Position numbers and translations under genes: made by a program | In this document: positions 3,546-19,993 of the stretch, in pieces | How the letters are laid out: each line of letters begins with the position of its first letter | Numbering within the stretch: the first letter of the stretch is position 1 | NCBI GenBank assembly: GCA_947464275.1 | Contig: CANHVU010000024.1 | Coordinates: 1-50,885 of the forward strand | Source: Bacteroidota bacterium | Lineage (GTDB): Bacteria > Bacteroidota > Bacteroidia > UKL13-3 | Direction: 5' to 3' | Length of the DNA: 50,885 bases | The notes under the pieces: generated by a model | The model's input: the letters and a program-made list of their open reading frames with translations, nothing else | Databases searched by the model: none | What the model was told of the DNA's origin: nothing

Positions 3546-3553
3546 TACTTAAA

Positions 3554-4885
3554 TTAGTTGTTTAAATGATAATCCATCAATGGTTGTTTCCAGTTTCTTT
3601 GGCCTGTTTTTACTTTAGCTCCAAGCACGTTTAAAATACTATAAATACCAAAATAAGTACGGTTAATGTATAAGGCATGTTGCGAGCCCCTACCCTCTTT
3701 GCTTTCGCGCAATTCTTTCATATTGGTAACTTCTTCGCCTAAAGCGTAAATTTTATCAATGTAATCGTTATTGCTAAAGTCAAATTCATCGGTAACAAAT
3801 GGAGTACTCAATAAAGTAGTCATTCTAATAAACGCATCAGTAATTACATCTTGTGTGCGTTTATCATCTTTTTCGCTTACAATTTGTTGTTGCAACATAA
3901 TACGCTTAATGCTTTCTTGACTCTTTAAAATTTCGGGAACCAATAAAGCAAAATAGTTGTAATAAAAATCTTCAGGAATTTCCTTTACACAACCAAAATC
4001 AATTACGCCTAAACTACCATCTGCTTGCATCAAAAAATTACCTGGATGAGGATCGGCATGCACTGCTTTTTGTTCATGTACTTGCATGTCGTAAAAATCC
4101 CACATGGCTTGTCCAATTTGATTCTTTATTTCTTGAGTTGGATTGGTTTTTAAAAACTCTTCTAAATGTAATCCTTCCAACCAATCCATCACCAAAACTT
4201 TATTGCTTGAGTATTCAGGATAGTATTTGGTAAATTTTATATTCGGAATATCTGCACATAGCCTCGAAATTTCTTTACTGCGCTGCAATTCTAAATCGTA
4301 ATTGGTTTCTTCCAACAGTTTGCTTTCTACTTCTATGATGTATTTTTCAAACTCCTTTTCGCTTAAACCAATTAACCTAAAGGCAATAGGTTTTACCAAT
4401 TTCAAATCGCTTTTTATGCTTTCAGCAACTCCTGGATATTGAATCTTTATAGCCAATTTCTGACCATCTTTTGTTGCTTCATGAACCTGACCAATACTGG
4501 CCGCACGAGTTGATTGCATGTTAAAGGTATCAAAAATTTGCTGTGGGGTTTTGCCAAATTGTTTAACAAAAGTTTGTACAATTAGTGGACCCGAAAGCGG
4601 TGGAGCAGAATATTGCGCCAAAGCAAACTTATTGACATAAGCCCTAGGCAATACATTTTTTTCCATGCTTAACATTTGTGCCACCTTTAAAGCCGAACCT
4701 TTTAGCTCACTTAAAGCATTGTACACATCTTCCGCATTATCCTCGTGCAGTTGCTCTTTGGTCATGCTTGGGTCAAGCATTTTTTTTGAATAATGTTTGA
4801 TATAGTTTCCGCCAATTTGCGCACCTGTTTTTACAAAACGCATGGCACGCTCTACTTTGGTTGAAGGAATTGAATTTTGTTCCAT
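3554..4885 (-). CDS. ABC1/UbiB (ADCK/COQ8)-family atypical protein kinase-like protein
   Basis: Cytosolic or membrane-associated atypical kinase family that includes UbiB and COQ8, linked to quinone or lipid metabolism as an ATPase. Visible motifs: the lysine-helix motif in SALKVAQMLS (67-70, normally KxGQ; here KVAQ), the Ala-rich loop AASIGQVH (128-135), the ATP Lys in AIKIQ (147), the catalytic loop HADPHPGNF (276-284) and metal motif DFG (296-298). The length of 443 fits soluble members; no C-terminal transmembrane helices are evident. A TetR-like regulator lies upstream on the same strand, separated by a repeat-rich 204-base gap, and an NDH-2 gene lies beyond. This supports, but does not prove, a respiratory-quinone connection. 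Confidence 0.88.
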   Translation of the reverse strand: MEQNSIPSTKVERAMRFVKTGAQIGGNYIKHYSKKMLDPSMTKEQLHEDNAEDVYNALSELKGSALKVAQMLSMEKNVLPRAYVNKFALAQYSAPPLSGPLIVQTFVKQFGKTPQQIFDTFNMQSTRAASIGQVHEATKDGQKLAIKIQYPGVAESIKSDLKLVKPIAFRLIGLSEKEFEKYIIEVESKLLEETNYDLELQRSKEISRLCADIPNIKFTKYYPEYSSNKVLVMDWLEGLHLEEFLKTNPTQEIKNQIGQAMWDFYDMQVHEQKAVHADPHPGNFLMQADGSLGVIDFGCVKEIPEDFYYNYFALLVPEILKSQESIKRIMLQQQIVSEKDDKRTQDVITDAFIRMTTLLSTPFVTDEFDFSNNDYIDKIYALGEEVTNMKELRESKEGRGSQHALYINRTYFGIYSILNVLGAKVKTGQRNWKQPLMDYHLNN

Positions 4886-4911
4886 ATATGATTTAAATGA
4901 TTCTGGTTTGG

Positions 4912-5083
4912 CACAGATTTCACTGATTGATTTTTCTATGTTATCAGTTTAATTAGCGTGAATTATTTGCCACAGATTACGCTGATTTTTTATTTCTTGT
5001 TTACTGAACTTTTCTCTAATAAAGCGAAAGAGTTTACTTAAAGTACTTATAGATTTTTCTGCGTAATCTGTGCAATCTGTGGC
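4912..5083. repeat. Inverted, partly duplicated CACAGATT repeat between the TetR and ABC1 genes
   Basis: Three related stretches lie in the gap. One at 4912-4935 and one at 4969-4990 read CACAGATT followed by an ACGCTGATTTTT-like tail. One at 5051-5083 is their reverse complement with an extra CACAGATTG unit. The copies at 4969 and 5051 can pair, giving a long hairpin. This resembles the dispersed CACAGATT intergenic repeats often seen in Bacteroidota. Nothing suggests it is coding. Confidence 0.7.
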
Positions 5084-5089
5084 TATTTT

Positions 5090-5716
5090 CTATCTGTTTT
5101 GAAATAAAAATTTTCCAAAATCAAGAGCAGCATCTAAAGCCGATTTACCCATTAAATCGAACGCTAAATTAACAGAACGCTCTATTGATTCATCAGTTTT
5201 TTCAAACCCTTTGCTGCTATCGTTTAACCAAAAAGTAATTACAAACAAAAAGTTAAGCCATAAACCGCTTACATATTTTTCGTCTAAGTACTTACGTTCT
5301 TGAATTTCGTTAGTTCCAATAGCCTCTGATAAAATGGGTTTCATGTTATCAACAAACACTTCGTGAAGTTCATTTAAGTATTTAGGCCATCTTGGTAATT
5401 TTACCAAATCGCGGTTTTTTAAATACACCGCAAAACTGCGGTAGTTTTTAGCTTCTTCAATAAAAGCAAAAAATACGGCTAATACTTTTTCGCGAGCTGA
5501 ATATTGTTCCCAAGGCTCAGCATCGGCACAAGTTTTATAGGCATTTTCGAACCAAATTTTATAAATATCGGCTTCTAAACCTTCCAAACTAGAGTAATGG
5601 TTATAAAACTCTTTTTCTTCCATGTTTATTGCCTTGGCAAATAAGTAAACACTTTCGGGTGTTTTGTTATGCTCTAAAGTGTGGTTAATGTATTGTTTTA
5701 TTAAATCGTTGCTCAT
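5090..5716 (-). CDS. TetR/AcrR-like transcriptional regulator
   Basis: A 208-residue protein. Its N-terminal 55 residues look like a TetR helix-turn-helix: a first helix LIKQYINHTL, then TPESVYLFAKAINM and a recognition segment EEKEFYNHYSSLEGL with the characteristic FYNHYSS-L pattern. The rest is an all-helical domain with no recognised ligand signature. It lies upstream of the ABC1 kinase on the same strand, which suggests control of, or co-transcription with, that gene. The DNA-binding helix is somewhat degenerate compared with classical TetR proteins, so its effector and operator are unknown. Confidence 0.7.
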   Translation of the reverse strand: MSNDLIKQYINHTLEHNKTPESVYLFAKAINMEEKEFYNHYSSLEGLEADIYKIWFENAYKTCADAEPWEQYSAREKVLAVFFAFIEEAKNYRSFAVYLKNRDLVKLPRWPKYLNELHEVFVDNMKPILSEAIGTNEIQERKYLDEKYVSGLWLNFLFVITFWLNDSSKGFEKTDESIERSVNLAFDLMGKSALDAALDFGKFLFQNR

Positions 5717-5813
5717 ACTATTTAAGACAAGTGTTGGTTAATATAGTTTTGAAAGCTAATAAAAGTTTGGTAATTACTTATTAGTCAAACTATTTTAGCT
5801 TATTATTAAATCA

Positions 5814-7103
5814 TTATTGTTTGGGCACAAAAGGCCTAGTTATAATTCTAATGGCGCGTTGGTAACTCACATAATTCCACATCCAATTCAGGAACACCAC
5901 TAGCCTGTTTCTAAAGCCAACCAATAACATTAAATGTATAAACATCCAACCTAACCAAGCTATATAACCTTGCATTTTTATTCCAAATATTTCAAACACA
6001 GCTTTGTGCCTACCAATAGTGGCCATACTGCCAAGGTTAAAGTAATTATAAGGTTTGGGCTGTTGGTTATTTATTATTTTCAATAAATTATTCCCTAACA
6101 ATTTGCCTTGTTGTTGCGCCACAGTTCCCACCATTGGGTGTCCGTTTGGAAAAGCTTCATCGGTGGTCATGTAGGATATATCGCCAATTGCATATACATT
6201 GTTTAATGTTTCAATCTTATTAAATGCATCTACTTTGTATCTATTGCCACGCACCACTAAATCGGCAGAAATACCAGGTATGGTTTTACCTTTAACACCT
6301 GCACTCCAAATTACCGTATCGGTTTTTAAAATTTGGCCATTGCTTAAAGTTAAGTTTCCTGTTTTGGCATCGTAACTTTCCACTGCGGTATTGGTTTGCA
6401 CATGCACGCCTAATTCTTCTAAAAACTGTTGCGCTTTTTTCGATGAAATTTCGCTCATAGCAGCCAACACCCTTGGGGCAGCTTCAATTAAATGCACTTG
6501 CATTTTATTGGCATCTATTTCCTTATAGTCAGCAGGAATTACATTCTTTTTTATTTCGGCCAATGAACCCGCAGTTTCTACTCCCGTAGGGCCTCCACCT
6601 ACTACCACAAAGTTTAAAAAACGTTCAATATCGCCTGTTTTACTTTCGCTCAAAGCTTTTTCAAACTCTTGTAAAATATCGCTTCGTAAATCCAATGCAT
6701 CAGGAATTGATTTTAACTGCATGCAATGTTTTTCTAATTCAGCATTGCCAAAAAAATTGGTTTGCGCCCCAGTAGCTATGCATAAGTAATCGTAGGTAAA
6801 ATTGCCAATATTGGTAATTACTTCATTTTGGGCAGTGTTTACTTCTTTTACTTCGGCCATTCTAAAGGCCACATTGGGCATACTTCCAATAATTTTTCGG
6901 AGTGGATATGCTATGGCATCAGGACCTAAACCGCCCGAAGCCACTTGATACATTAAAGGTTGAAAATTGAAATAATTGTTTTTATCTAAAACGGTAATTT
7001 TTATGGGTTTGTTGTTTAACTTTTTAATCAGTTCTAACCCAGCAAAACCGCCACCTATTACTATTAAATGTGGGGTTTGCATACTTTGATAATGATGCTT
7101 CAT
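5814..7103 (-). CDS. ndh: Type II NADH:quinone oxidoreductase (NDH-2), FAD-dependent
   Basis: Single-subunit, non-proton-pumping NADH dehydrogenase expected to pass electrons from NADH to the quinone pool at the inner face of the cytoplasmic membrane. It has two dinucleotide-binding folds: FAD site VIGGGFAGLELI near the N terminus and NADH site VVVGGGPTGVETAGSLAE near residue 165. The WSAGVKG and YAIGD (FAD) motifs are present, and a hydrophobic, aromatic C-terminal tail (about 380-425) provides membrane attachment. I take the ATG at 7103; the reading frame also runs to a TTG at 7115, and an ATG at 7082 is the minimal start. The gene reads away from the envelope cluster. The call is strong; quinone type cannot be read. 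Confidence 0.9.
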   Translation of the reverse strand: MKHHYQSMQTPHLIVIGGGFAGLELIKKLNNKPIKITVLDKNNYFNFQPLMYQVASGGLGPDAIAYPLRKIIGSMPNVAFRMAEVKEVNTAQNEVITNIGNFTYDYLCIATGAQTNFFGNAELEKHCMQLKSIPDALDLRSDILQEFEKALSESKTGDIERFLNFVVVGGGPTGVETAGSLAEIKKNVIPADYKEIDANKMQVHLIEAAPRVLAAMSEISSKKAQQFLEELGVHVQTNTAVESYDAKTGNLTLSNGQILKTDTVIWSAGVKGKTIPGISADLVVRGNRYKVDAFNKIETLNNVYAIGDISYMTTDEAFPNGHPMVGTVAQQQGKLLGNNLLKIINNQQPKPYNYFNLGSMATIGRHKAVFEIFGIKMQGYIAWLGWMFIHLMLLVGFRNRLVVFLNWMWNYVSYQRAIRIITRPFVPKQ

Positions 7104-7457
7104 ATTGCTATGCAATAATTAATTGTGCGCTACAAAGGATAGTAATAAAAATGACCTTACCTATCTATTTTGATTAATATTTATCAAGTAAGACTGAATC
7201 TGTTTTTAATCAATAAAAAGGAACTTATAAGGGCTAAAAGTGTACTTAATTTTGATAGGTAAATGAGAATGTGATTTTTTGGCATTCTTTAATAAATTCA
7301 TAAAATAAAAATTATATCTACAATAAAAATTAATTGCTAGTATCTTTAAAATAAAATTAAAAAAGAATTATATTTTAGCCTAAAATATAATTAATACCCA
7401 TGTAAATGGCAGCTTATTTATTTAAGCTGTATTATTGTGATTGATAATTATTTAGAG
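7104..7457. promoter_or_regulatory. 354-base divergent intergenic region with inverted repeats
   Basis: This separates the NDH-2 gene (minus) from the envelope cluster (plus) and must hold both promoters. No clear TAnnTTTG box was found for either gene. Visible structure: a perfect 12-base inverted repeat with a 3-base loop at 7366-7392 (AATTATATTTTA and its complement), a 7-base inverted repeat CAGCTTA/TAAGCTG at 7410-7429, and distant complementary 9-mers TTACCTATC (7157) and GATAGGTAA (7254). These are candidate operators or 5'-UTR hairpins for the cluster. Confidence 0.4.
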
Positions 7458-8876
7458 ATGAAATTTATTTTCTTACGGGTTTACTTTATTTGTTTACTAT
7501 TTATTTCAATAAATGGCCTTGCCTCAGCACCAATTACTGTGGCCATTTCAAATTTTAAAACGCTAGGTGGTGGAACTGAAAAAGACTTTTTAGGGGCAAG
7601 TTGCACCGAGGCCATTTTTGAAATACTTACCAACGATCATACCGTTAGGGTGGTAGAGCGTGAATATTTAAATAAAATAATAGAAGAGGTAAAACTCCAA
7701 AACTCAGGTTTGGTTGATGAAAAAACAGCCATTGAAACTGGAAGACTTTTAGGTGTTCAATATTTTGTGTTTGGCTCTATAACGGCACTTAACGAAACTT
7801 TAAAAATTAGTACACGTACGGTAAGTGTAACCACAGGACAAGTAATTAGTAGCAATTCGGTAAATGGAAGTTTAAATAACCTATTTAATCTTCAAAGCGA
7901 ATTAGCAAAAAAAATTACTGCTTCATTTAATATTGGAAGTAGCCTTCTGCAGGCCTCCAATAATTCAAAAGCCGATTTATCTGATATTCCAATTCAAGTT
8001 TATAATAAAGTAGATAAAGTAAAAGCATTAGCTAAAACCTTTCCAATTTTTGGCCTTGACCCCGCAAGGGCACGCAAAAAAGCCGAATACCAAAATGGCA
8101 TAAATTATTGCGATGAAATAATAGAAACATCGCCTAAGCTTTATTTGGCTTATTATTACAAAGCACAATTTTTATTACAATTGGAAAACAATGAAGAAGC
8201 TGAAGCTGCCATTAAAATTGCCAAAAAACTAAAAAGTGCTGATTTAGACATTATGCTTTTAAATGCCAGTTATCATATGATAAATAATGACGACAATAAA
8301 GCATTAGATTTGCTTACTTTTTTATCAAATAAATATCCTGAAGATGCCCGTGTATGGTATGGCATAGCAAAAACTCAAGCATCGGCACTTAACAACCATG
8401 CTGCTATTGAAGCGTGCATCAATGCATTAATTTATACCCCTAAAATCCCTCAAGTTGAAAAATTATTACAAACAGTTTTAGGAGGAATGGAAGGTGTAAG
8501 TGCATCGCAGTTTTCGAGCAACGATGTGTATGTATTTGCACAGTTTTATAAAACTTTTTTTGATTTCGGAGTTAGCAAAACCACTGCCGAACTAGCCAAA
8601 CAAGTTAACCAACTTTGGCCTGCCATGTACTTGCCTTATTATGTGATGGGCAGTTACCAAGCCAATTTAAACAAAACCGAACTAGCAGAAATTTTACTGA
8701 ATGATGGTTTAAAATACAATAACACCTACCCATACTTGCACCGAGAATTAGGCAAATTATTAATAAATAATAAAAAGTGTAAAGATGGTAAAATGCATTT
8801 AACCATTTATATGCGCACTGAAACAAGTGTAGAGGATTACGATCAAATTCAAAAATATTTCAATAAGTGTAATTAA
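7458..8876 (+). CDS. CsgG/FlgO-like exported protein with C-terminal TPR-type repeats
   Basis: First gene of the envelope cluster. The signal peptide (about 24 residues, ending ASA) has no lipobox. Residues about 25-165 have the alpha/beta pattern of the CsgG/FlgO/LpoB group: ITVAISNFKTLGG, then VRVVEREYLNKIIEE, then GRLLGVQYFVFGSI and TRTVSVTTGQVI. In known members this fold forms outer-membrane-associated lipoprotein rings or activators. The C-terminal ~280 residues are helical TPR-like repeats (YLAYYYKAQFLLQLENNEEAEAA and following). I use the ATG at 7458; the frame extends to a GTG at 7437, but that would put charged residues before the signal peptide. The following lipoprotein gene starts 15 bases after the stop. 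The fold call is fairly secure; its role is unknown. Confidence 0.75.
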   Translation: MKFIFLRVYFICLLFISINGLASAPITVAISNFKTLGGGTEKDFLGASCTEAIFEILTNDHTVRVVEREYLNKIIEEVKLQNSGLVDEKTAIETGRLLGVQYFVFGSITALNETLKISTRTVSVTTGQVISSNSVNGSLNNLFNLQSELAKKITASFNIGSSLLQASNNSKADLSDIPIQVYNKVDKVKALAKTFPIFGLDPARARKKAEYQNGINYCDEIIETSPKLYLAYYYKAQFLLQLENNEEAEAAIKIAKKLKSADLDIMLLNASYHMINNDDNKALDLLTFLSNKYPEDARVWYGIAKTQASALNNHAAIEACINALIYTPKIPQVEKLLQTVLGGMEGVSASQFSSNDVYVFAQFYKTFFDFGVSKTTAELAKQVNQLWPAMYLPYYVMGSYQANLNKTELAEILLNDGLKYNNTYPYLHRELGKLLINNKKCKDGKMHLTIYMRTETSVEDYDQIQKYFNKCN

Positions 8877-8891
8877 AATGATTCAAAGCAA

Positions 8892-9287
8892 ATGAAAAAG
8901 CAAATTTTACAAATACTATTTTTAATTAGTATAATTCTATTTATGGGCTGCGAAAAATCCATTGTAGAGCCTACTTTAGCTTTAAAGCTAGTAAATGAAC
9001 CGACATCAACCAAAGGCAAAGTTGAAATTTATAATCATATTGGCAATCAAGGCGCAATAAGACTTTATATAAATGGTGATTTTGTAACTAGTTTGCCAAA
9101 TTATTTCAGCAGCACAAGTAATTTTGATTGTGGTTATTCAACCAGCACTTTAGCTGTATATACTGGCAACAATTTAGAAGAAGGTTCATATTATTATGAA
9201 ATCAGGAATTCTAATGGAGTAACGATAATTAGCAATTACTTTTATATTTCACCAGATAATTGTACACCTGTTAACCTTTTTTATTAA
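8892..9287 (+). CDS. Small lipoprotein of unknown function
   Basis: 131 residues. A hydrophobic N-terminal segment ends in lipobox FMGC with Cys at about 20, so it is probably a membrane-anchored lipoprotein. The mature part is predicted beta-rich: short alternating strands, GDFVTSLPNYF, and YYYEIRNSNGVTI near the end, like a small Ig-like or jelly-roll domain. Two cysteines (FDCGY, DNCTP) could form a disulfide. It sits 15 bases after the CsgG-like gene and 2 bases before the next gene, so it is almost certainly co-transcribed. I do not recognise a named family. Confidence 0.65.
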   Translation: MKKQILQILFLISIILFMGCEKSIVEPTLALKLVNEPTSTKGKVEIYNHIGNQGAIRLYINGDFVTSLPNYFSSTSNFDCGYSTSTLAVYTGNNLEEGSYYYEIRNSNGVTIISNYFYISPDNCTPVNLFY

Positions 9288-9289
9288 AA

Positions 9290-10615
9290 ATGAAAAAACT
9301 TGTAAAAAAGTCAATTATAACTATTGTCATAATGACAACTTTGGTTCTAGGAATTTATGCTCAAACAGAATTAATGTATAAATCTCCAAATAAAGTACCA
9401 GTAAATCAAGATTGGCGAAATGAATTAAAAAAACAAAAGGAAATGGAAAAACAATTTCAAGAACTTTGGAAAATTCGTCAGAAAACCTTAGATACTTTCT
9501 ATAATAACATTTTTAACTTACCAAAAAGAATAAAATTTGAATTTGGCTTGAATCTTGGATTTGTTTTTGGCGGACTTTATAATTATGAAACATATAAAAG
9601 TGGATTTAAATATGAGGCAAAGGAAATAAACCTAAACCCAGCGTTATGTGCAGGACTTAATTTTAATATTTATTGGCCTTTAGCAAAACGCTTAAATTTA
9701 TTAACAGGGACTTCAATAGGATTGGATATATTTGAGTTTGAAACAAAAAAACCAAATCCAAATCCTTTTTTAAAGGATGAAATAGTAAAAGATAATATGT
9801 ATACTATTAATTGGAGTGGTAATTTAGGATTAATGTATAATCCTAAAAAATTTGTGATTCATAATTATGTTCAGTTTGGTAAAGTATTTTCTCCATCTTC
9901 TGATTTCTTCAGAAATGTATTTGGTATAGGTATTAGATCACTAAATTATTTAGTTACAATTAATTATAGATATTCAGGAGGTACATTAATAAATGTAACC
10001 CAAAAGTCAGAAACGGCTGAACAAGAAAGAAGTTACAGTTCAGATGCAATTTTTCTTACATTTAGTATTATTGGTCCTAAATTAACTCCAAAGGAAAAAG
10101 AAGTAGTCAAAAAAATTAAAGCTAAATATAGTACTGAAGTAAAATTGGTAATTAATGGAAATACACCTGATTTAATAAACCAAAATTTGATACCTCAAAC
10201 AAATTACGCTGAACCACTCAAAGAGTCAATTTATAAAGATTTTTCAGATTCTACATTGAATGATTTATTGCAATTAGCATTAAAAAAAGAAGAGTTTGAA
10301 AAGGCAGACGCCATTCAAATGGAAATAAACAAAAGAATACAACAAAATAAATATGCCAAAAGCAGTAATGAAGAGTTAAAAATACTACTTGAAAATGCCT
10401 TAAAAATGGAAGATTATAAATCGGCAGAAGATATTCAACTTGAAATAGACAAAAGAGTTAAAGATAAAATAGATGTTAATAGCAAAACAAGGCAAACAAA
10501 TAAACCAACTCAAAAAACCTTAAAAGAGCTAGAAGTAGAATTGAAAAAAGCCATGGATACTGAAGATTACAAAAAAGCAGATGAAATACAGAAAGAAATT
10601 AATAAAATAAAATAA
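9290..10615 (+). CDS. Exported barrel-like protein with three C-terminal UVR-like helical repeats
   Basis: 441 residues with a signal peptide ending YAQ at about 25. A short charged coiled segment (about 42-66) is followed by a region rich in alternating Gly/aromatic strands (about 80-265: FEFGLNLGFVFGG, LCAGLNFNIYW, GNLGLMY, YRYSGG), compatible with an outer-membrane beta-barrel. Residues 321-349, 359-393 and 410-441 are three copies of a helical-hairpin motif of the form L..L..A...E.Y..A..IQ.EI.KR, which resembles the UVR motif of UvrB, UvrC and ClpC. The last repeat is nearly identical to that of the next protein. The gene starts 2 bases after the previous stop and ends 2 before the next start. 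No function is known to me. Confidence 0.6.
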   Translation: MKKLVKKSIITIVIMTTLVLGIYAQTELMYKSPNKVPVNQDWRNELKKQKEMEKQFQELWKIRQKTLDTFYNNIFNLPKRIKFEFGLNLGFVFGGLYNYETYKSGFKYEAKEINLNPALCAGLNFNIYWPLAKRLNLLTGTSIGLDIFEFETKKPNPNPFLKDEIVKDNMYTINWSGNLGLMYNPKKFVIHNYVQFGKVFSPSSDFFRNVFGIGIRSLNYLVTINYRYSGGTLINVTQKSETAEQERSYSSDAIFLTFSIIGPKLTPKEKEVVKKIKAKYSTEVKLVINGNTPDLINQNLIPQTNYAEPLKESIYKDFSDSTLNDLLQLALKKEEFEKADAIQMEINKRIQQNKYAKSSNEELKILLENALKMEDYKSAEDIQLEIDKRVKDKIDVNSKTRQTNKPTQKTLKELEVELKKAMDTEDYKKADEIQKEINKIK

Positions 10616-10617
10616 CA

Positions 10618-11679
10618 ATGAAACTAGCAACGACAATAATAATTTCTTTATTATCAATAAATGGTTTGTTAGCTCAAAACTCAGATTTGTTTTATAAAAA
10701 AACTGAGACTAAACAAGAATTAACTAGTAATATATCAAGTAAAAATAATATTTTAAAAGGTGGACAAAAATCTTTTCATGTGAATTTAGGTGATGCTCGC
10801 GCTATTGGTATTGGATATAAAATGAATATTGGTAAAGATTTTAGTTTCGGTCCAGGCATTCATTTTGGGGTCATATCCGATGGATTTGAATCAATAAACT
10901 TATTTAAGGTTTCAGGTTTGTTTAGGTACAGACCTAATAATGCATACTTAAAATTTGGTCCTTATTTTACCATGCCAATTTCAGGAGGATTTGTATATGA
11001 TTTTGAAGACATTATAGAAACACCTGGCTTTGCAATTGGAGGTGGTTACGAATTTATGAAAGGTTTTGATATTGGGCTAACCGAAAACATTGACTTATTC
11101 CTAATGGAGTTTGACGACCCATTAGCATTACTTCCAACCATTAGTTTAAGCTACCATTTTGGAGAACCAAAATATACACAAAACGCTAAACCTTTAAATA
11201 CTCAAAATCAATCAACTCCTAACTATAATTTAGTACCAATTGAGTCTAGCTCACCCGCTCCTACAACACCAACAAATGTCAAAACTGATTATTCAAAATA
11301 CAGTGATGAAGAACTTAAAAAACTTTTAGACCAAGCAACTACAGCCGAAAAATATAATGAAGCTAACGATATTCAAACTGAAATAACCAAAAGAACCGAG
11401 CAAAATAAATATACCAAACTAAGCACCGAAGAATTAAAGAAACAATTAGAGGCTGCCTTAAAATCAGAGGATTATGCCAAAGTAGAAGCCCTACAAAAGG
11501 AAATAGACAAAAGAGCCCGCCAGAAAAAAGATAAAACCACACCAGATAATAATAGCAAACAACCAAATAAAAAATCAATAAAAGATTTAGAAGAAGACCT
11601 TAAAAAAACCATGGAAGCCGAAGATTACAAGAAAGCAGATGAAATTCAAAAGGAAATAAACAAACTTAAAAAACCATAA
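10618..11679 (+). CDS. Outer-membrane beta-barrel-like protein with three C-terminal UVR-like repeats
   Basis: 353 residues, signal peptide ending LAQ at about 20. Residues about 50-185 look like a small OmpA/OMP-type barrel (FHVNLGDARAIGIGYKMNIG, FGPGIHFGVIS, YLKFGPYFTMPISGG, ending ISLSYHFG). After a Pro/Thr/Ser linker (about 186-227) come three UVR-like hairpins at 228-260, 269-302 and 320-350, built on EELKK.L..A...E.Y..A..IQ.EI.KR. The architecture parallels the preceding gene, so the two probably arose by duplication with drift in the barrel. In this topology the repeats may lie in the periplasm or on the surface. Spacing indicates co-transcription. Partners are unknown. Confidence 0.65.
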   Translation: MKLATTIIISLLSINGLLAQNSDLFYKKTETKQELTSNISSKNNILKGGQKSFHVNLGDARAIGIGYKMNIGKDFSFGPGIHFGVISDGFESINLFKVSGLFRYRPNNAYLKFGPYFTMPISGGFVYDFEDIIETPGFAIGGGYEFMKGFDIGLTENIDLFLMEFDDPLALLPTISLSYHFGEPKYTQNAKPLNTQNQSTPNYNLVPIESSSPAPTTPTNVKTDYSKYSDEELKKLLDQATTAEKYNEANDIQTEITKRTEQNKYTKLSTEELKKQLEAALKSEDYAKVEALQKEIDKRARQKKDKTTPDNNSKQPNKKSIKDLEEDLKKTMEAEDYKKADEIQKEINKLKKP

Positions 11680-11690
11680 ACTAAACTGAT

Positions 11691-12608
11691 ATGAAAATTA
11701 AATTTTACACACTTTGGTTAGTTGCAATTACAGTTGTAGCGATCAGTTCATGCCAAAGTATCACATCTACAGCTAGGCTTTATTCTGAACAAGGTATTTC
11801 AGCAGATAAAGTAAAAATGCGAACAGTGGCAATTATTCCAAATAGAATGCCAATCAGTATGCAAGACCCAGAGTATTGGAGAAATTACAATTGGCAATTA
11901 ATAGCTAATAATTTCACTGCAAAGGGTTATAGGGTAATTGATTACAATACGACCGTAAATTTATTTACACGTTCTGGGTTACCATTGGAAGATACCAAAA
12001 GCTCCCGCGATAAATACGCAGATTTTGCAAACGAAATAAATGCAGAACTTGTGGTAATTCCTTATTATGGCACCTCTTACAATATGCAAAGTGGTTTTTT
12101 GAATAATACACACAAATATTTAAGTATTGGTTCATTGCAATTTTATTATGCACCTAAGAATGATTTTTTAGCCAGAATAGATTTTGAAGGAAATTTTGAA
12201 ACGCAAACTACTGCACCGGGTGCATATGCCATAATAGGACTTTTACCTTCTTTGCTAATTGACCCAACAGATCCAGAATCTGCATCAAGTATTGGCGTTT
12301 TAACAAGTCTTTCTAGTTTATGCTTTTTAATAAATGATTTGTCGGCACCTACCAACCCAAAGAAAAATTGGGAAACTGCTTTCAATTACGGAATTTCAAA
12401 GGCTACTAGTTCTTTTTTTGATAAATATAGCCCAAGTGTAAGTAATTTCAATTACGAACCTACAAAGCCAAATGTAGCCCCAGCAACCAGTAATTACTCT
12501 AGCTTTAGCATTGAGGAATTAGAATTATTAAAGAAAAATGCGGTAGAGAAAAAAGACTTTAAAAAAGCTGCTGAATTAAAATCAGAAATTGATAGTAGAA
12601 AAAAATAA
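11691..12608 (+). CDS. Lipoprotein with CsgG/GNA1162-like alpha/beta domain and one UVR-like motif
   Basis: 305 residues. The lipobox ISSC puts the lipidated Cys at about 21. The mature part begins with a region (about 35-125) having the pattern of small alpha/beta envelope domains of the CsgG/DUF799 kind: RTVAIIPNRMP, GYRVIDYNTTVNLF, INAELVVIPYYGTSY. A hydrophobic Gly/Pro-rich stretch near 170-210 may touch the membrane. The C-terminal 34 residues (272-305, IEELELLKKNAVEKKDFKKA and on) are one UVR-like hairpin like those in the two preceding proteins. It starts 11 bases after the upstream stop and ends 4 bases before the next ATG. Domain assignment is tentative; lipoprotein status is good. 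Confidence 0.6.
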   Translation: MKIKFYTLWLVAITVVAISSCQSITSTARLYSEQGISADKVKMRTVAIIPNRMPISMQDPEYWRNYNWQLIANNFTAKGYRVIDYNTTVNLFTRSGLPLEDTKSSRDKYADFANEINAELVVIPYYGTSYNMQSGFLNNTHKYLSIGSLQFYYAPKNDFLARIDFEGNFETQTTAPGAYAIIGLLPSLLIDPTDPESASSIGVLTSLSSLCFLINDLSAPTNPKKNWETAFNYGISKATSSFFDKYSPSVSNFNYEPTKPNVAPATSNYSSFSIEELELLKKNAVEKKDFKKAAELKSEIDSRKK

Positions 12609-12612
12609 TTCC

Positions 12613-13989
12613 ATGAAAACCAATATCAAGTATTTTTTAGTTGTATGCTGGGCCTTATTTAAAATAAGTGCACAAGCCCAAACAACAACACCTGAATGGG
12701 TAACAAAATACCCTCTTAATTCAGATTATTTTATTGGCATAACCTATGCTGATAAAAAACTTGATAATTACATGGAGGCTGCAAAAAGTAAAGCATTACA
12801 AAGTTTGGCCAATGAAATTACAGTGAAAATAATTGGCCAAACTTCGCTTCAAACCATTGAAATAAATCAAAAGGTAAAACAAAGCTATATAAGTTCGGTA
12901 ACTACCGAAACCATTAAAGAACTAGAAGGCTACGAATTAGTTGATAGTTGGCAAGATAAACAACAATATTGGGTTTACTATCGACTAAGTAAAAAGGACT
13001 ATTACCAAGCAAAAAAGGATAAAGCAAATTCAGCTTTACAAATTGCAAAAAACTATGTAATGCTAGGAATGGAAAGTTTTAATGGAGCCAATTACAAACA
13101 AGGTTTAAATTATTATTTTATGGCTACCAATCAAATTCAAAACTACTTGTACTTTGAATATGATATAGAACTAAAGCAGCAAATAAATGCACTGTATCAA
13201 GATGCTTACAAAAATGTGAGTGATTTTTACGCTCAAATTAACATAAAAGCACCAAGTCAGCATATTAAGCTTAAACCCTATCAATTAAACAATTACATAC
13301 TAAGCTTAAATATTCAAAACAAACAAAGTTTAAAACCCATTGCCAATTTTCCTTTCGCTATAAAAGTAGTTAGCGGTCAAGCTAATATTGAAACTAACAA
13401 CAAATTAGTTAACGAAAATGGAAATTTAAATTTTAAAATAAACAGTTTTGGAACCAAAAGTAAAGTACACAGTTTTAAAATAAGTATTGATAAAGACGAT
13501 TTGTTTAACGAATACATTAAATCGAATAACTTATTGGCTATTGATTTATATAAAAAAATAAATTGCGAAACCACCATAGAAATAGAAAGTGAAAGTTTAT
13601 TTGTATTTATTAAATCGAACGAAAAAGCATTTAATATAAAAACCAAAGAACTGTTTCTAGCCAATGCTATAAAAAGTTATTTATTACAAAATGGAGTTAG
13701 CATTACCAATAATTTAAGTGAAGCTAACTATTGTTTAGATATTGAAGCCAATACCACCAAAGGAAATATAGCTTACGATATGCAAGTAGTTTATTTAGAT
13801 GCAATAATTATACTTAACAAATCGAAAAATACTGTTTTTACAAAAAACTTTAACGGAGTAAAAGGACTGAAAGCCACTGAAAGTGCTGCTTCTTACGAAT
13901 CGTATCAAAAGCTAATTCGTAAGTTTGAAAATGAACTTTATGCAGAGTTACTGAAAGAAATGGGGTTAATTAACAATAACGAAGAATAA
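12613..13989 (+). CDS. Exported protein with N-terminal LPP20-like domain
   Basis: 458 residues with a signal peptide ending AQAQ. The first mature ~120 residues carry the LPP20/FlgP-like layout: PEWVTKYP, then YFIGITYADK, an AKSKALQSLANEI helix, a strand-rich TSLQTIEIN segment, and LVDSWQDKQQYWVYYRL, followed by a helix rich in Lys/Ala. The long remainder alternates beta-rich stretches with a C-terminal helical end and has no family I can name. I use the ATG at 12613; the frame extends to a TTG at 12589, which would overlap the previous gene and spoil the signal peptide. LPP20-type proteins elsewhere partner with CsgG/FlgO-type ones, as here. Confidence 0.6.
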   Translation: MKTNIKYFLVVCWALFKISAQAQTTTPEWVTKYPLNSDYFIGITYADKKLDNYMEAAKSKALQSLANEITVKIIGQTSLQTIEINQKVKQSYISSVTTETIKELEGYELVDSWQDKQQYWVYYRLSKKDYYQAKKDKANSALQIAKNYVMLGMESFNGANYKQGLNYYFMATNQIQNYLYFEYDIELKQQINALYQDAYKNVSDFYAQINIKAPSQHIKLKPYQLNNYILSLNIQNKQSLKPIANFPFAIKVVSGQANIETNNKLVNENGNLNFKINSFGTKSKVHSFKISIDKDDLFNEYIKSNNLLAIDLYKKINCETTIEIESESLFVFIKSNEKAFNIKTKELFLANAIKSYLLQNGVSITNNLSEANYCLDIEANTTKGNIAYDMQVVYLDAIIILNKSKNTVFTKNFNGVKGLKATESAASYESYQKLIRKFENELYAELLKEMGLINNNEE

Positions 13990-14122
13990 AATATCAAACA
14001 AAATAAATATAAACAACAACAAATTAAGCACTTGTCAATTAAATTAAACTTATAATAAGTTTGGCACAACAATTGGAAGTGTTAAAAAAAATTTATTAAT
14101 TGCAAACAAAACAACTAAAATT

Positions 14123-14695
14123 ATGAAAAAGTTTATTTATGTATTTGCTGCCGTATTAGTAGTAGCAGCTGTATCTTGTAAATCGAAAAAAGGTGCTAAA
14201 ACCACAGTTGACAAAGACTCTGGAATGGAAGTTTTAAACTTACCATGCGATGAGTATAGAAGCTCAACAGAAACTGCTTTTAGAGCCACCCAGTCACAAA
14301 AAAGTTCTGACTTATCGTTATCTCGCGAAAAAGCTTTAGTAGTAGCAAAACAAAGATTAGCAGGTTTGGTTGAAACAAAAATCAAATCGGTAACTGATAG
14401 ATATGTAGACGAATACCAAACCAATGCCGGTTTAGAGATGAAAGGTAAATTCAATAACTTAACCCGCGAAATCATCAACCAACAATTAAATGATGTGAAA
14501 ATTCTTTGCGAAAAAACAGTTCGCGAAAAAGATGGTTCATTTACAACTTATGTAGCTGTAGAAATGAATAAAGATGCTTTAAAAACTGCTATGGAAAGCA
14601 AACTTTCTGACAAAGCTAAATTAGCAGTAGATTACGACAAAATGAAATTTGAACAAATCTATAATGAAGAAATGAAAAAATTAGACGAAAAATAA
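14123..14695 (+). CDS. LPP20-like lipoprotein
   Basis: 190 residues. The signal peptide ends at lipobox AVSC (Cys about 19). The mature part reads PCDEYRSSTETAFRATQSQKSSDLSLSR..., then EKALVVAKQRLAGLVETKIKSVTD, a helix-strand unit like LPP20 domains, then SFTTYVAVEMNKDALKTAME and a Lys/Glu-rich C terminus. It lies 133 bases after the preceding LPP20-like gene, so it may have its own promoter, but it is on the same strand and followed directly by a strong terminator that ends the cluster. Codon use here is less AT-extreme than in its neighbours, compatible with high expression. Function unknown. Confidence 0.65.
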   Translation: MKKFIYVFAAVLVVAAVSCKSKKGAKTTVDKDSGMEVLNLPCDEYRSSTETAFRATQSQKSSDLSLSREKALVVAKQRLAGLVETKIKSVTDRYVDEYQTNAGLEMKGKFNNLTREIINQQLNDVKILCEKTVREKDGSFTTYVAVEMNKDALKTAMESKLSDKAKLAVDYDKMKFEQIYNEEMKKLDEK

Positions 14696-14715
14696 GTCTA
14701 ACATTTAATAAAACT

Positions 14716-14750
14716 AAAAGCGACTACCCTTTAAAGTAGTCGCTTTTTTT
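14716..14750 (+). terminator. Rho-independent terminator ending the envelope cluster
   Basis: A perfect 12-base stem (AAAAGCGACTAC with its complement) around an 8-base loop is followed by a T run. It lies 20 bases after the stop of the last cluster gene. Confidence 0.9.
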
Positions 14751-14764
14751 ATGTAATAAAACTT

Positions 14765-14772
14765 TACTTTTG
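14765..14772 (+). promoter_or_regulatory. Bacteroidota -7 box (TACTTTTG) for aroC
   Basis: TACTTTTG matches TAnnTTTG and ends 10 bases before the aroC ATG, downstream of the cluster terminator. So aroC is probably transcribed on its own with a very short leader. Confidence 0.5.
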
Positions 14773-14782
14773 TTTTAAAATT

Positions 14783-15859
14783 ATGGCAGGAAATTCGTTT
14801 GGAAATATTTTTAAAATAACCACTTTTGGCGAAAGCCATGGAAATGCATTAGGTGTAGTAATTGATGGTGTTTTACCAAATATTGAATTTGATTACCAAT
14901 TGGTTCAAGCTGATTTGGATAAACGTAAACCAGGCCAATCCAAAATTACTACTGAAAGAATTGAAGATAATGAATTTGAAATAATCAGTGGATTATTTGA
15001 AGGAAGAACAACCGGTGCGCCATTAACCATTATTGTAAAAAATAAAAACCAACAATCATCCGATTACGAGCATTTAAAAGATGTATTTAGGCCATCCCAT
15101 GCCGATTACACTTACCAACAAAAATACGGGATACGAGATTACCGAGGCGGTGGTCGCCAATCAGCTCGCGAAACAGTATCAAGAGTATTAGCAGGTTCAG
15201 TTGCTAAAATGATTTTACAAAAAATAGGTATACAAATACATGCATTCGTAAATCAAATTCATAGCATTAAGTTGGAAACACCTATTAATGAAATAGATTT
15301 TAGCTTAATAGAACAAAATATAGTACGGTGTCCGAATCCAGAAACTGCCAATAAAATGATTGCCTTAATAGAACAAATAAAAGCCGAAGGCAATTCAGTT
15401 GGTGGCATTATTACTTGTGTTTGTAAAGGTGTTCCTGTAGGATTAGGCGAGCCTGTTTTTAATAAACTACATGCTGAACTTGGAAAAGCCATGCTCAGTA
15501 TTAATGCTTGTAAAGGTTTTGAAATAGGTAGTGGATTTGAAAGTGTATTGCTCAAAGGCAGTGAGCATAATGATGAATTTGAATTCAATAATGAACAAGT
15601 TAAAACACAAACTAATCATAGTGGAGGCATTCAAGGAGGAATCAGTAATGGCATGGATATCGTATTTAAAACAGCTTTTAAACCAGTTTCTACCATCAAA
15701 CAGAATCAAAATACCATCAATGCTACTTTTGAAAACATTGATTTTAAGGCCGAAGGCCGCCACGACCCTTGCGTAGTTCCAAGAGCAGTCCCAATTGTTG
15801 AGGCAATGGCTGCATTGGTTTTAGTCGATTTTTACCTTTTTAATAAAGTTTACCATTAA
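14783..15859 (+). CDS. aroC: Chorismate synthase
   Basis: Converts 5-enolpyruvylshikimate-3-phosphate to chorismate using reduced FMN, the last common step of aromatic amino acid and folate/menaquinone precursor synthesis in the cytosol. Family signatures: TFGESHGNALGVVIDG near the N terminus, RPSHADYTYQQKYG and RDYRGGGRQSARET near 105-130, and RHDPCVVPRAVPIVEAM near the C terminus. Length 358 is normal. Start: ATG at 14783, MAGNSFGNIFK being the typical N terminus. No other shikimate gene is adjacent. Confidence 0.97.
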   Translation: MAGNSFGNIFKITTFGESHGNALGVVIDGVLPNIEFDYQLVQADLDKRKPGQSKITTERIEDNEFEIISGLFEGRTTGAPLTIIVKNKNQQSSDYEHLKDVFRPSHADYTYQQKYGIRDYRGGGRQSARETVSRVLAGSVAKMILQKIGIQIHAFVNQIHSIKLETPINEIDFSLIEQNIVRCPNPETANKMIALIEQIKAEGNSVGGIITCVCKGVPVGLGEPVFNKLHAELGKAMLSINACKGFEIGSGFESVLLKGSEHNDEFEFNNEQVKTQTNHSGGIQGGISNGMDIVFKTAFKPVSTIKQNQNTINATFENIDFKAEGRHDPCVVPRAVPIVEAMAALVLVDFYLFNKVYH

Positions 15860-15971
15860 TAAAACTGCACTATTACTATTTAGTCTTTTTTAGAATTTTA
15901 CTCACTTCAAACAAAGCCAAGTAAATAATTCAAAAATTTATTACTTTATTTACAACCTTAAATAATTGTAA

Positions 15972-17819
15972 ATGAAGAGAATTTTAATTGCAGCCTTTTT
16001 ATTGTTTTCGATAAATAGCTTTGCTCAAACTGTAGTGCCTTGTATTACAGATGAACTTTACGTAAAATCAATACAAGAAAATCCATTATTAAAAGTTGAG
16101 GAAGAACGTGGTAATGAACTAGCACGCCAATATGCATCACAACTAAGTTTGTCAAAAAAAGGAACAGTAATTTACATTCCAGTTGTTTTTCATGTAATTC
16201 ACAAATATGGTTTTGAAAATATTTCGCAAGCTCAAGTAAATGATGCTTTGAGAGTTATGAACGAGGATTTTAGAAAAATGGCAGGTACTAAAGGAGGGGC
16301 AAGTACTGATAGCCGATCAGTAGATGCTGAAATAGAATTTAGATTAGCCCAAGTCGATCCTAACGGAAATCCAACTGATGGTGTAAATAGAATTTTTAAC
16401 ACTTCAGGAACAGATAACGGAACCGATGCAACAAAAGCATTAAGCTATTGGGATAGTAATAAATATTTTAACGTTTGGGTGGTAAATGTAATTAACAGCT
16501 CATCTGCACCATCTGGTTCTATTATTCTAGGTTATGCGCAATTCCCAACCTCTCGTCAACAAAGACCAAGTACCGATGGTATTATTGTTAGAGCTGACCA
16601 AGTTGGAAATATTGGTGTGGCGCAAACAAGCCAAGCAGGAAGAACCGTAACGCATGAAGCAGGACATTGGTGTGGTTTATACCATCCATTTCAAGGTGGT
16701 TGCGTTGGTGGTACATCAAGTAATTGTGCCTCACAAGGTGATCAAGTTTGTGACACCCCTCCTGTAGCTTCATCAACTAGCGGTTGCCCCAATAGCCAGA
16801 ATTCATGTACTAATGATGTGCCTGATTTACCAGATAATATTAAAAACTTTATGGACTATGCTGACGGAACCTGCATGGATATGTATACTGCTGGCCAATC
16901 TGTAAGAATGAAAAGCTTGATGCAAACATACAGATCAAATATTTATTCTACCAATAATTTAAGTGCAGCTGGTTTAAATGCTGATGGTACATACAAAACT
17001 TTAACTGCTTCAACCATTAAGGCTCCATTCTTAATTGATTTTAATGGCAATACACCTTATTGGATTATTGAAAACTTTATGAATGCAACTAACGGTTGGA
17101 AAGTGAATTATCAACTTGGTTCAAATGACGGTACCTGTATGTTTATAAATAGCTATGCAAATGGTGCTAACAGTATTTTAAATACTCGTGATGCATTTCA
17201 TACTAGCAATATTGATATAACTAGCTTAGCAAAACCCACTTTAAAATTTAAAATAGCACATGCAAGAAGAGTAAGTGCTGCTACCGATCAAATAAACTTA
17301 TTTGTATCAGACAATTTTGGAAGAACTGAAATTTTAGCTAAAACTTTTACCGTTACTGATATTGAAACAGCTGATGTACAAGGAACGGCAGCATTTACAC
17401 CAACAGCATCACAATGGAAAACTTTAAGTTTAGATTTATCACCTTACAAAACATATACTAATTTTAGGGCACGTTTTGAATTACAATCACGCAGAGGAAA
17501 CAATACTTATATTGATGATATACAAATTGGAGAATTCGTGAATGGGGTTGATGATATAAAAAATAAAATAAACTTATCAATTAATCCAAATCCGAGTAAC
17601 GGTTTTTCAGTATTATCATTTACAAATACTACAAAATCAAACACTTTAATTAACATTTTTGATGTAAGTGGTAAATTTGTAAAAAACATAACGGATAATG
17701 AATTGCCTGCTGGTGAGCATCAAATTGAAATTAACTCAACAGAGTTAGATAAAGGAATGTATTTTGTAAAAGTAACACAAAATGGTAATAGCTATACCAT
17801 TAAATGGTTAGTTAATTAA
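15972..17819 (+). CDS. Secreted M43-family zinc metalloprotease with T9SS sorting domain
   Basis: A 615-residue exported protease of the pappalysin/cytophagalysin family (M43B). Signal peptide ends FAQ at about 19. The catalytic zinc motif HEAGHWCGLYH is at 228-238, and the Met-turn is in the NFMDYADGTCMDMYT region. A jelly-roll or MAM-like adhesion domain follows (about 360-525). The last ~80 residues are a type A T9SS C-terminal domain: SINPNPSNG, then INIFDVSGK, and a final KGMYFVKVTQNG strand. It would be exported through the Sec and then type IX systems to the surface or medium and probably degrades proteins for nutrition. It stands alone between aroC and the helicase and ends in a strong terminator. 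Substrate not readable. Confidence 0.92.
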   Translation: MKRILIAAFLLFSINSFAQTVVPCITDELYVKSIQENPLLKVEEERGNELARQYASQLSLSKKGTVIYIPVVFHVIHKYGFENISQAQVNDALRVMNEDFRKMAGTKGGASTDSRSVDAEIEFRLAQVDPNGNPTDGVNRIFNTSGTDNGTDATKALSYWDSNKYFNVWVVNVINSSSAPSGSIILGYAQFPTSRQQRPSTDGIIVRADQVGNIGVAQTSQAGRTVTHEAGHWCGLYHPFQGGCVGGTSSNCASQGDQVCDTPPVASSTSGCPNSQNSCTNDVPDLPDNIKNFMDYADGTCMDMYTAGQSVRMKSLMQTYRSNIYSTNNLSAAGLNADGTYKTLTASTIKAPFLIDFNGNTPYWIIENFMNATNGWKVNYQLGSNDGTCMFINSYANGANSILNTRDAFHTSNIDITSLAKPTLKFKIAHARRVSAATDQINLFVSDNFGRTEILAKTFTVTDIETADVQGTAAFTPTASQWKTLSLDLSPYKTYTNFRARFELQSRRGNNTYIDDIQIGEFVNGVDDIKNKINLSINPNPSNGFSVLSFTNTTKSNTLINIFDVSGKFVKNITDNELPAGEHQIEINSTELDKGMYFVKVTQNGNSYTIKWLVN

Positions 17820-17822
17820 TTT

Positions 17823-17862
17823 AAACAAAAAAGAGGCAATAAATATTGCCTCTTTTTTGTTT
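17823..17862. terminator. Bidirectional rho-independent terminator between M43 protease and helicase
   Basis: Perfect inverted repeat: arms of about 18-19 bases (17823-17841 and 17844-17862, core GAGGCAATA) with A/T runs on both sides. It serves both convergent genes and overlaps the last base pairs of the helicase gene. Confidence 0.92.
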
Positions 17863-19003
17863 AATAACCTTTCAAATCAATTTCATTTATTTCAGTTATT
17901 TCTATTTGTTTTTTTATCTTTTTTAAAATGACACCAAAATGATGAGCCTCTTCATCACTAACTAAGCTGATAGCTTCGCCAGGATTTTCTGCCCTGCCAG
18001 TTCTGCCAATTCTATGAATATAATCCTTTGGAGAACGGGGTAGTTCGTAGTTAATTACATAAGGTAAAAACGGTATATCAATACCTCTACTCATCAAATC
18101 TGTTGCAATTAGTACATCTATACTCCCTTCTTTAAATTTTTTGAGTGCGGTTTCTCTTGCTCCTTGACTTTTTTTACTGTGAATGGCTGATGCCAAAATA
18201 CCATTAGCATTTAATTTATCAGAAACAGCATCTGCCCTATGAACAGATGAAGTAAAAACTAACACTTGTTTCATGTTGTTTTTTGTTATTAAATACCGCA
18301 AAAAAGGACCTTTCTTATCATCAGTAACATGATATGCTTTTTGAGTAATTATTTCTACATTTTGCTTGGTTTCTTCTATTATAATCCTTGTTGGATTATT
18401 AAGTAATAGTGGAATAATAGTATTTACATCTGTACTTAATGTAGCTGAGAATAAAAGATTTTGTCGTTTGAAAGGCAACAATTTTAGAATAGAATCCATT
18501 TCTTCTTTAAAACCTAAGTTTAGCAGTTTATCAGCTTCATCTACAACAAGCACTTCTATACTCGATAAAAAAACAGCATTACTTTTTACTAATTCCAATA
18601 ATCGACCTGGAGTAGCAATTAAAATTTCTACTCCTTGCAATTTAATCATTTGTGGGTTGATGGAAACGCCTCCATATACTGCTAATGTTCTAATGCTTTG
18701 TTCCGTATGTTGGTTGATAGTATTAAATACCTTTTCAACTTGAATAGCAAGTTCACGAGTAGGAACAATAACCAATGTGTTTATATGACGATTTTTACTA
18801 ATAGGTTTGGTTTGCAATAATTGTATAGTTGGCAGGGCATAACTTGCGGTTTTTCCAGACCCAGTTTGTGCCACACCAATAATATCATTGCCTTTCAAGA
18901 TTGCAGGAATAGCTAACTCTTGAATTGGTGTTGGTTTTATATAAAATAGTTTTTCTAATGCATATAAAATGTCATTACACAAACCAAGTGAAGCAAAATT
19001 CAT
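17861..19003 (-). CDS. DEAD-box ATP-dependent RNA helicase (RhlE-like)
   Basis: Unwinds short RNA duplexes in ribosome assembly, RNA decay or cold adaptation. All core motifs are present in order: Q-motif region KPTPIQELAIPAIL, Walker A AQTGSGKT, PTRELAIQ, TPGRLLEL, DEAD box VDEADKLL, SATLS, and the C-terminal-domain motifs ATDLMSRGIDIP and HRIGRTGRAE. At 380 residues it is a minimal helicase with almost no C-terminal extension, whereas many RhlE proteins have a basic tail. It has its own -7 box 24 bases upstream and a terminator shared with the protease gene. Confidence 0.93.
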   Translation of the reverse strand: MNFASLGLCNDILYALEKLFYIKPTPIQELAIPAILKGNDIIGVAQTGSGKTASYALPTIQLLQTKPISKNRHINTLVIVPTRELAIQVEKVFNTINQHTEQSIRTLAVYGGVSINPQMIKLQGVEILIATPGRLLELVKSNAVFLSSIEVLVVDEADKLLNLGFKEEMDSILKLLPFKRQNLLFSATLSTDVNTIIPLLLNNPTRIIIEETKQNVEIITQKAYHVTDDKKGPFLRYLITKNNMKQVLVFTSSVHRADAVSDKLNANGILASAIHSKKSQGARETALKKFKEGSIDVLIATDLMSRGIDIPFLPYVINYELPRSPKDYIHRIGRTGRAENPGEAISLVSDEEAHHFGVILKKIKKQIEITEINEIDLKGY

Positions 19004-19026
19004 AATTAAAATTTATTAAGTGTTGT

Positions 19027-19034
19027 CAAATATA
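19027..19034 (-). promoter_or_regulatory. Bacteroidota -7 box (TATATTTG on the minus strand) for the helicase
   Basis: The reverse complement of this site reads TATATTTG, 23-24 bases before the helicase ATG at 19003. It fits the TAnnTTTG consensus. Confidence 0.5.
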
Positions 19035-19077
19035 AGGAAACAACAATGGCTATAACTACCGAAATAACCACTATATA

Positions 19078-19108
19078 AAAAAAGCACTCCATAGTGGAGT
19101 GCTTTTTT
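19078..19108 (-). terminator. Rho-independent terminator after the DUF2911 gene
   Basis: A perfect 14-base stem (AAAAAAGCACTCCA and its complement) with TAG loop. It lies just beyond the stop of the minus-strand gene at 19110 and its A/T arms make a U tract in that direction. Confidence 0.9.
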
Positions 19109-19109
19109 C

Positions 19110-19958: not shown

Positions 19959-19985
19959 ATTTTAAAAAGATTTATTTATTAAAAG

Positions 19986-19993
19986 CAAATATA
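19986..19993 (-). promoter_or_regulatory. Bacteroidota -7 box (TATATTTG on the minus strand) for the DUF2911 gene
   Basis: The reverse complement reads TATATTTG, 28 bases upstream of the ATG at 19958. It fits the TAnnTTTG consensus; no certain -33 box. Confidence 0.45.

Follow-up and report, generated by a model that had tools for sequence, protein, structure and literature searches.

Among the described systems closest to the locus reported here are assemblies with rings. In the excerpted part of PMC12141448, twelve PelC lipoproteins are arranged in a periplasmic ring. For the Campylobacter motor, passages of PMC12222027 describe FlgP rings, a common fold of FlgP, Lpp20 and FlgT, ring formation by both FlgP and FlgT, and a tie between ring formation and a sequence insertion. 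A Helicobacter ring lipoprotein, the gene of which lies beside flgP, is reported in part of PMC11756786 to help keep the barrier function of the outer membrane. The present locus was found in 50,885 nucleotides of DNA of a Bacteroidota bacterium (GenBank assembly GCA_947464275.1, contig CANHVU010000024.1, positions 1 to 50,885), hereafter called the window. It is composed of six tightly spaced genes for exported proteins, A to F, which form a cassette upstream of a resident lipoprotein gene, G (Table 1). Its parts belong to fold types that are already known. Neither their combination nor the helical-hairpin tails on the exported proteins C, D and E were found described among the papers listed in full-text searches (open-licence papers only), in agreement with the original prediction, made from the sequence alone, that no described system with this make-up is known.

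Like the FlgO/FlgP/FlgT rings, the locus brings together LPP20-type proteins (F and the G family), a CsgG/FlgO-type protein (A) and a predicted FlgT middle-domain fold (E). It differs in that it does not stand beside flagellar genes (judged by eye at the locus only, no genome-wide flagellar search having been made), that F gave no FlgT match at E-values up to 1 in Pfam, which contains FlgT models, and that predicted barrels and UVR-like tails are added. With the PelC/PelB exporter it shares TPRs and the predicted fold of E, which is nearest to PelC, a ring-forming outer-membrane lipoprotein; here, in contrast, the TPRs are on the CsgG-domain protein A, E has a UVR-like tail, and no sixteen-stranded barrel was seen, D being modelled with eight strands. 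The CsgG domain of A is shared with the curli channel, but the match is partial and no curli gene was seen beside it by eye, no dedicated search having been made. The modelled fold of E is also that of GNA1162, LpoB and the N-terminal domain of TolB, although E matched none of these families by sequence, nor that of PelC, in Pfam or NCBIfam at E-values up to 1. D as modelled has the eight-stranded barrel of OmpA and OprF followed by a further part, which in D consists of UVR-like hairpins. Outside the cassette, the tails are most closely related to those of bifunctional nuclease (BFN) proteins with a UVR tail, which have no export signal by eye, whereas the cassette hairpins sit on exported proteins.

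As had been predicted, seven consecutive plus-strand open reading frames (ORFs) encode exported proteins, all with export-type N-termini, those of B, E and G having a lipoprotein cysteine (by eye). The gaps are 15 (A/B), 2 (B/C), 2 (C/D), 11 (D/E) and 4 bases (E/F), matching the predicted spacing of 2-15 bases for six of the genes, while 133 bases separate F from G and 87 separate G from aroC. The tight run is therefore A-F, and G stands apart. In the sister genome G004 the gene order is ndh-G-aroC, with approximately 106 bp in place of the 6.8 kb holding A-F; blastn of window positions 3001-20000 against this locus (L125) aligned the flanks up to position 7286 (93.1%) and again from 14084 (93.8%). 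Because G004 has ndh-G-aroC without A-F, these six genes are regarded as a cassette gained or lost upstream of G, and since G003 and G009 carry it directly upstream of G, both gain and loss are possible in the case of G004. The proposal of one compact seven-gene operon thus held for A-F only; a single inherited unit was ruled out for G, which adjoins aroC without A-F in sister genomes. Pairwise ratios of nonsynonymous to synonymous substitution rates across A-F were 0.04-0.45, and these genes are under purifying selection.

G and a second, more distant G copy were present in all ten genomes of the genus, and G was directly followed by aroC in eight; in the two exceptions the contig ends shortly after G (G009) or G lies beside an F homologue (G006). 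E together with cassette-type A and F was identified in 3/10, namely G000 (the genome of the window), G003, in which the cassette has neither B nor C, and G009. A scan of named genomes added two records of the same cassettes, both metagenome-assembled genomes: L096, from a pond and labelled Bacteroidetes bacterium, is the contig of G003, and L097, labelled Chitinophaga pinensis, is the contig of G009.

Five cassettes were identified in all, the other two in G642 and G736, which represent a second and a third family. In G642 the order is G-A-(B)-D-E-F, the B position being taken by a lipoprotein, and in G736 (62% complete) it is G-A-E-F with a short exported hairpin protein between A and E. Compared with the window proteins, these relatives show identities of 34-35% (A), 45% (E), 30-33% (F) and approximately 29% (G); for D of G642 the overall figure is 24%. 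The G copies of the two genomes, which stand beside A, have no lipobox by eye and were not grouped together in a tree of weak support. All five F proteins from the cassettes fell into one clade, supported at 100/100, in a tree of 34 rows, for which the program gave a long-branch warning. Since two other families keep the order and the F proteins are one clade, a chance run of exported genes was ruled out as an explanation; the neighbourhood comparison across relatives proposed in the original prediction showed neighbours that are not random. The cassette is older than the genus.

Its distribution is sparse. A search of 395 class genomes with an E profile matched 58, with the main domain of E in four (G000, G003, G642 and G736); other matches among the 58 begin at residue 235 at least and were classed as matching just the tail or linker, and in G766 residues 130-229 were matched (E-value 1.5e-4). 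Full-length E was present in 3/64 genomes of the family, three more matching by the tail alone, in one of the eight genomes of the G642 family, and in 1/395 phylum genomes, that of the window. With the D tail, 295 class genomes were searched and 17 matched.

The tails of C and D consist of three hairpins each and that of E of one, with the consensus EEL..LL..A...EDY.KA..IQ.EI.KR. They lie below the Pfam UVR cut-off, yet align with a BFN tail that passes it (32.8 bits), and for this reason are named UVR-like; to this extent the repeats predicted at the ends of the barrel proteins were recovered. Tails were found on D and E in five of five cassettes, two hairpins being seen by eye in D of G642. 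At the D position of G736 the ORF has a signal peptide and hairpins without a barrel, so the tail, and not the barrel, appears to be the constant element of D and E. The D-tail search also gave 14 tail-only genomes; of the seven neighbourhoods examined, six contain BFN-like proteins, recognized by similarity to two domain-scanned proteins. The seventh (L154:7032-8567) encodes an exported protein of 511 amino acids with N-terminal UVR repeats above cut-off, outside any cassette. UVR hairpins pair UvrB with UvrC, and such docking is best known from cytoplasmic proteins.

AlphaFold2 models of E and D were built from three closely related sequences each and are of low confidence. The E model (predicted local distance difference test, pLDDT, 55.2; predicted template modelling score, pTM, 0.52) matched PelC (9.2e-5) and GNA1162 (5.2e-4) in Foldseek. 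When the Foldseek matches were re-aligned in VIA, it gave PelC at Z 12.8 (root mean square deviation, rmsd, 4.3 over 151 residues), FlgT residues 98-265 at Z 12.5 (3.7 over 142), TolB at 11.3, GNA1162 at 9.8 and CsgG at 9.7, with a likeness to LpoB too, while unrelated names (polymerase gamma accessory subunit, tRNA synthetases) reached at most Z 8.4. E is thus predicted, at the level of fold only, to be of the PelC/FlgT-M/TolB-N/GNA1162 type, which agrees with its earlier description as a second CsgG/GNA1162-like lipoprotein. The motif EDTKSSRDKYA is invariant in E across the five cassettes, and the tail helices are placed by the model at residues 274-286 and 290-304.

The D model (pLDDT 52.8, pTM 0.28) has eight strands followed by three hairpins, with pLDDT of approximately 31-60 in the barrel block and mostly 68-86 in the tail block, where the helix pairs comprise residues 230-266, 270-305 and 321-351. 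No Foldseek match was below 0.001, the top rows being outer-membrane barrels (OmpA 2.8e-3, OmpX 3.5e-3); re-alignment in VIA gave Z 13.4 for OprF (rmsd 2.6, 120 residues) and 12.2 for OmpA. An eight-stranded barrel of the OmpA/OprF type is therefore a candidate fold for D. For C, a barrel is suggested by its strand-rich sequence, so that of the two predicted barrel-like proteins one has a model behind it. Pfam matched no peptidoglycan-binding domain in C or D. B is the least conserved member, with 50% identity to the G009 copy.

Protein A matched Pfam CsgG (PF03783) with 51 bits against a cut-off of 20.8 (E-value 1.5e-13), and its full-length relatives in G642 (41.5) and G736 (43) also passed. 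TPR matches of A were mostly below cut-offs, TPR models passing them in the G736 relative. For FlgO (PF17680, cut-off 22.6 bits) the scores were 16.5 in the window, 25.8 in G642 and 18.8 in G736; the CsgG and TPR parts of the predicted CsgG/FlgO-like protein stood, and of the three FlgO scores that of the G642 relative alone passes the cut-off. No barrel family was among the Pfam and NCBIfam matches of A. Against sequences in the PDB it found TPR proteins (best E-value 0.0011), unrelated chains and weak CsgG chains (0.6-1.1). A survey of 198 class genomes matched 14, and in those other than the genome of the window only the CsgG domain was covered. Among related CsgG-domain proteins there are fusions to caspase, DUF4145 or HEPN domains, and CsgG-domain proteins also occur as tandem pairs (L085:2309-5937, L080:6257-9664, L132:2-2761), some with those fusions.

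F matched Pfam LPP20 (PF02169) with 47.2 bits against a cut-off of 25.9, has a signal peptide without a lipobox (by eye), and LPP20 was recovered in 30/30 of its homologues (E-values up to 0.1). These homologues were found in 30/58 relatives and 10/247 phylum genomes, six of the latter ten having a G-family match within approximately 2 kb of F; 20-kb neighbourhoods were examined for part of the 30 loci. In the G family LPP20 was matched in six of ten members (E-values up to 0.1, best 5e-5) and not in window G itself, to which Helicobacter pylori Lpp20 aligned with an E-value of 0.32. Of the two LPP20-like proteins predicted, F was thus confirmed, and G is a candidate by its family. The fold check that had been proposed came out in the same direction, CsgG and LPP20 being found by hidden Markov models and the folds of E and D by searches with the low-confidence models.

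The same family types occur in a set consisting of a TPR-CsgG lipoprotein (A'), an LPP20 protein (F') and an LPP20-type lipoprotein (G'), adjacent in two other families (genomes G123 and G242; loci L090:8157-11553 and L092:6998-10435). It differs from the cassette in having no B-E and in A', lipoprotein-like by eye, in which the TPRs come first and CsgG second. Copies of F', A' and G were present in 10/10 genomes of the genus, and window F is approximately 23% identical to F' of its own genome. A was ruled out as an orthologue of A', based on the swapped domain order and on alignment of the CsgG domain only.

We tentatively favor the view that A-F work with a G-type protein as a scaffold or collar at the periplasmic side of the outer membrane rather than as a secretion pore. 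In that membrane, lipoprotein E would be held at the inner leaflet, possibly in a PelC-like ring. C and D would be anchored in the outer membrane with their tails hanging into the periplasm, where these may dock to the E tail on the UvrB/UvrC pattern; this tail-to-tail docking is proposed because of the ring-type folds in the set and the known pairing of UVR hairpins. A would bring in another domain of the CsgG type along with a TPR arm, F and G would contribute LPP20/FlgP-type parts, and B may be surface-exposed. The fold types of E, A, F and G form or join rings under the outer membrane elsewhere, and by analogy may do so here. Stiffening of the envelope, or a mount for a surface structure, are possible jobs.

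Several points weigh against the scaffold. The assembly, its contacts and its location are inferred. The cassettes found number only five; three belong to a single genus, and one comes from the incomplete G736 genome. G003 has neither B nor C, and in G736 no gene of the B type was seen. The Pfam UVR (PF02151) scores are 16.3 bits for C, 14.2 for D and 20.6 for E, all under the cut-off of 21.5, and the mean pLDDT of the E and D models is 55 and 53. Soluble barrels also align with D (Z 9.2-11.9, with maxima of 11.1 for avidin types and 11.9 for designed barrels), so that membrane insertion of D can only be presumed. A profile comparison of E with A (three sequences each) was negative (probability 0.5%), and E as a recognizable relative of A by profile was not borne out. 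A sequence search with E found no relevant PDB chain. More doubtful than the scaffold is its furthest-reaching form, a new outer-membrane machine in which exported UVR hairpins would hold flagellar-collar-type and PelC-type ring parts, outside any flagellar locus, to one another and to barrel anchors.

An export apparatus, in which E would be a PelC-like ring lipoprotein and the TPR arm of A would guide a polymer or protein across the outer membrane, is unlikely. It draws on PelC as the best fold match of the E model, on the combination of CsgG and TPRs in A, and on the Pel system, where according to part of PMC12141448 the TPRs of PelB sit within the PelC ring. The same part gives PelB sixteen strands, against eight in the modelled D barrel; the A-E interval of G736 holds only the barrel-less hairpin protein; the CsgG match of A is limited to profile positions 33-105 of 210; and no synthase or obvious cargo gene was seen beside the cassette in the ORF list of the window (by eye). 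The secretion port suggested in the original prediction is improbable because of the eight-stranded D barrel and the lack of a barrel in that interval.

A role in envelope maintenance or cell-wall regulation, like that of LpoB or TolB, is likewise unlikely; in this reading the A and E domains of the CsgG/LpoB type would contact cell-wall synthases or the Tol system. A passes the Pfam LpoB cut-off (30 vs 22.3 bits), but scores only 31 against 110.55 with the NCBIfam LpoB model. The E model resembles TolB-N and LpoB, and a penicillin-binding-protein-like gene (by eye) is located at 41674-43899, though 27 kb off; the genes adjoining the cassette are not cell-wall genes, and the few species carrying it speak against a core role.

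Less likely still is a surface adhesion or environment-sensing complex, with a fast-evolving, exposed B and the rest as its mount. In lipoprotein B the cysteine is followed by acidic or charged residues, and the low conservation of B fits such a part, as do a Reg_prop/SpoIIE sensor-type gene before the cassette in G736 and an exported caspase-domain gene directly upstream of it in G642 (L152:1336-2844). These neighbours differ between the two loci, however, B is missing or unseen in two of the five cassettes, as given above, and the surface-export signal of B is putative. A loose run of exported proteins with shared expression and no complex, which the loss of B and C in G003 and the resident status of G would allow, is the least likely, given the order kept across three families, the single F clade and the shared tails.

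Table 1. Features of the cassette A-F and gene G in the window.
Feature	Position	Strand	Description
Gene A	7458..8876	+	472 aa; signal peptide, CsgG/FlgO-type domain at approximately residues 25-160, then TPR repeats
Gene B	8892..9287	+	131 aa small lipoprotein
Gene C	9290..10615	+	441 aa; signal peptide, strand-rich region, three UVR-like hairpins
C tail, UVR-like hairpin repeats	10229..10612	+	52% identity with D tail
Gene D	10618..11679	+	353 aa; signal peptide, predicted eight-stranded barrel, three UVR-like hairpins
D barrel, residues 49-184 (predicted)	10762..11169	+	AlphaFold2 model and fold search
D tail, three UVR-like helical hairpins	11278..11676	+	AlphaFold2 model helix pairs
Gene E	11691..12608	+	305 aa lipoprotein; predicted PelC/FlgT-M/TolB-N/GNA1162-type fold and one hairpin tail
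E tail, one UVR-like hairpin	12492..12605	+	Pfam UVR 20.6 bits (cut-off 21.5)
Gene F	12613..13989	+	458 aa; signal peptide, LPP20 domain at residues 27-126, remainder without assigned fold
Putative Bacteroidota-type promoter of G	14032..14063	+	pattern TTG then TANNTTTG; weak evidence
Gene G	14123..14695	+	190 aa resident lipoprotein, LPP20-type family; partner by adjacency
Terminator-like hairpin 3' of G	14716..14747	.	readable on both strands
Cassette A-F	7287..14083	+	blastn of window vs sister genome G004

The terminator predicted at the end of the run was recovered as the hairpin downstream of G, the longest among the terminator-like sites of the region, although the number of such sites (five) is not above the shuffle mean of 3.7. 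The pattern just upstream of G, which we take to be the Bacteroidota-type promoter consensus, occurs in the window and in G003 and not in G009 or G004, and is a tentative assignment. Scans of the window for Rfam families (gathering threshold) and tRNAs gave no hits. A phage or plasmid origin was rejected, as E had no match in viral_contigs (a pattern scan reaching close relatives), plasmids or phages. On either side of A-F stand the arms of an imperfect inverted pair (7445-7474 and 13997-14026, 70% complementary); the other AT-rich pairs listed within the region are at least as good, so it was given no weight.

Positions 7458-14695 are mosaic in synonymous divergence (dS): A, D and E are nearer to G009 (0.37-0.43, vs 0.80-1.33 to G003), while F and G are nearer to G003 (0.32-0.36, vs 0.90-1.34 to G009). 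These opposite affinities make recombination near the E/F border likely.

The direct neighbours of the cassette and G are ndh, aroC and a metalloprotease. A metalloprotease-like (15972-17819) and an agmatine-deiminase-like protein (23756-25621) both carry type A sorting tails of the type IX secretion system. Its lipoprotein PorW/SprE is encoded at 38928-41672 (525 bits, cut-off 250), and the host therefore probably has type IX secretion.

If the favored reading is true, the folds of flagellar collars, curli channels and Pel export would also be combined into other outer-membrane assemblies. The shared hairpin tail might then act as an assembly code, a simple rule for how the parts find each other. 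The relative with a barrel-less protein at the D position suggests that it is the tail that is kept.

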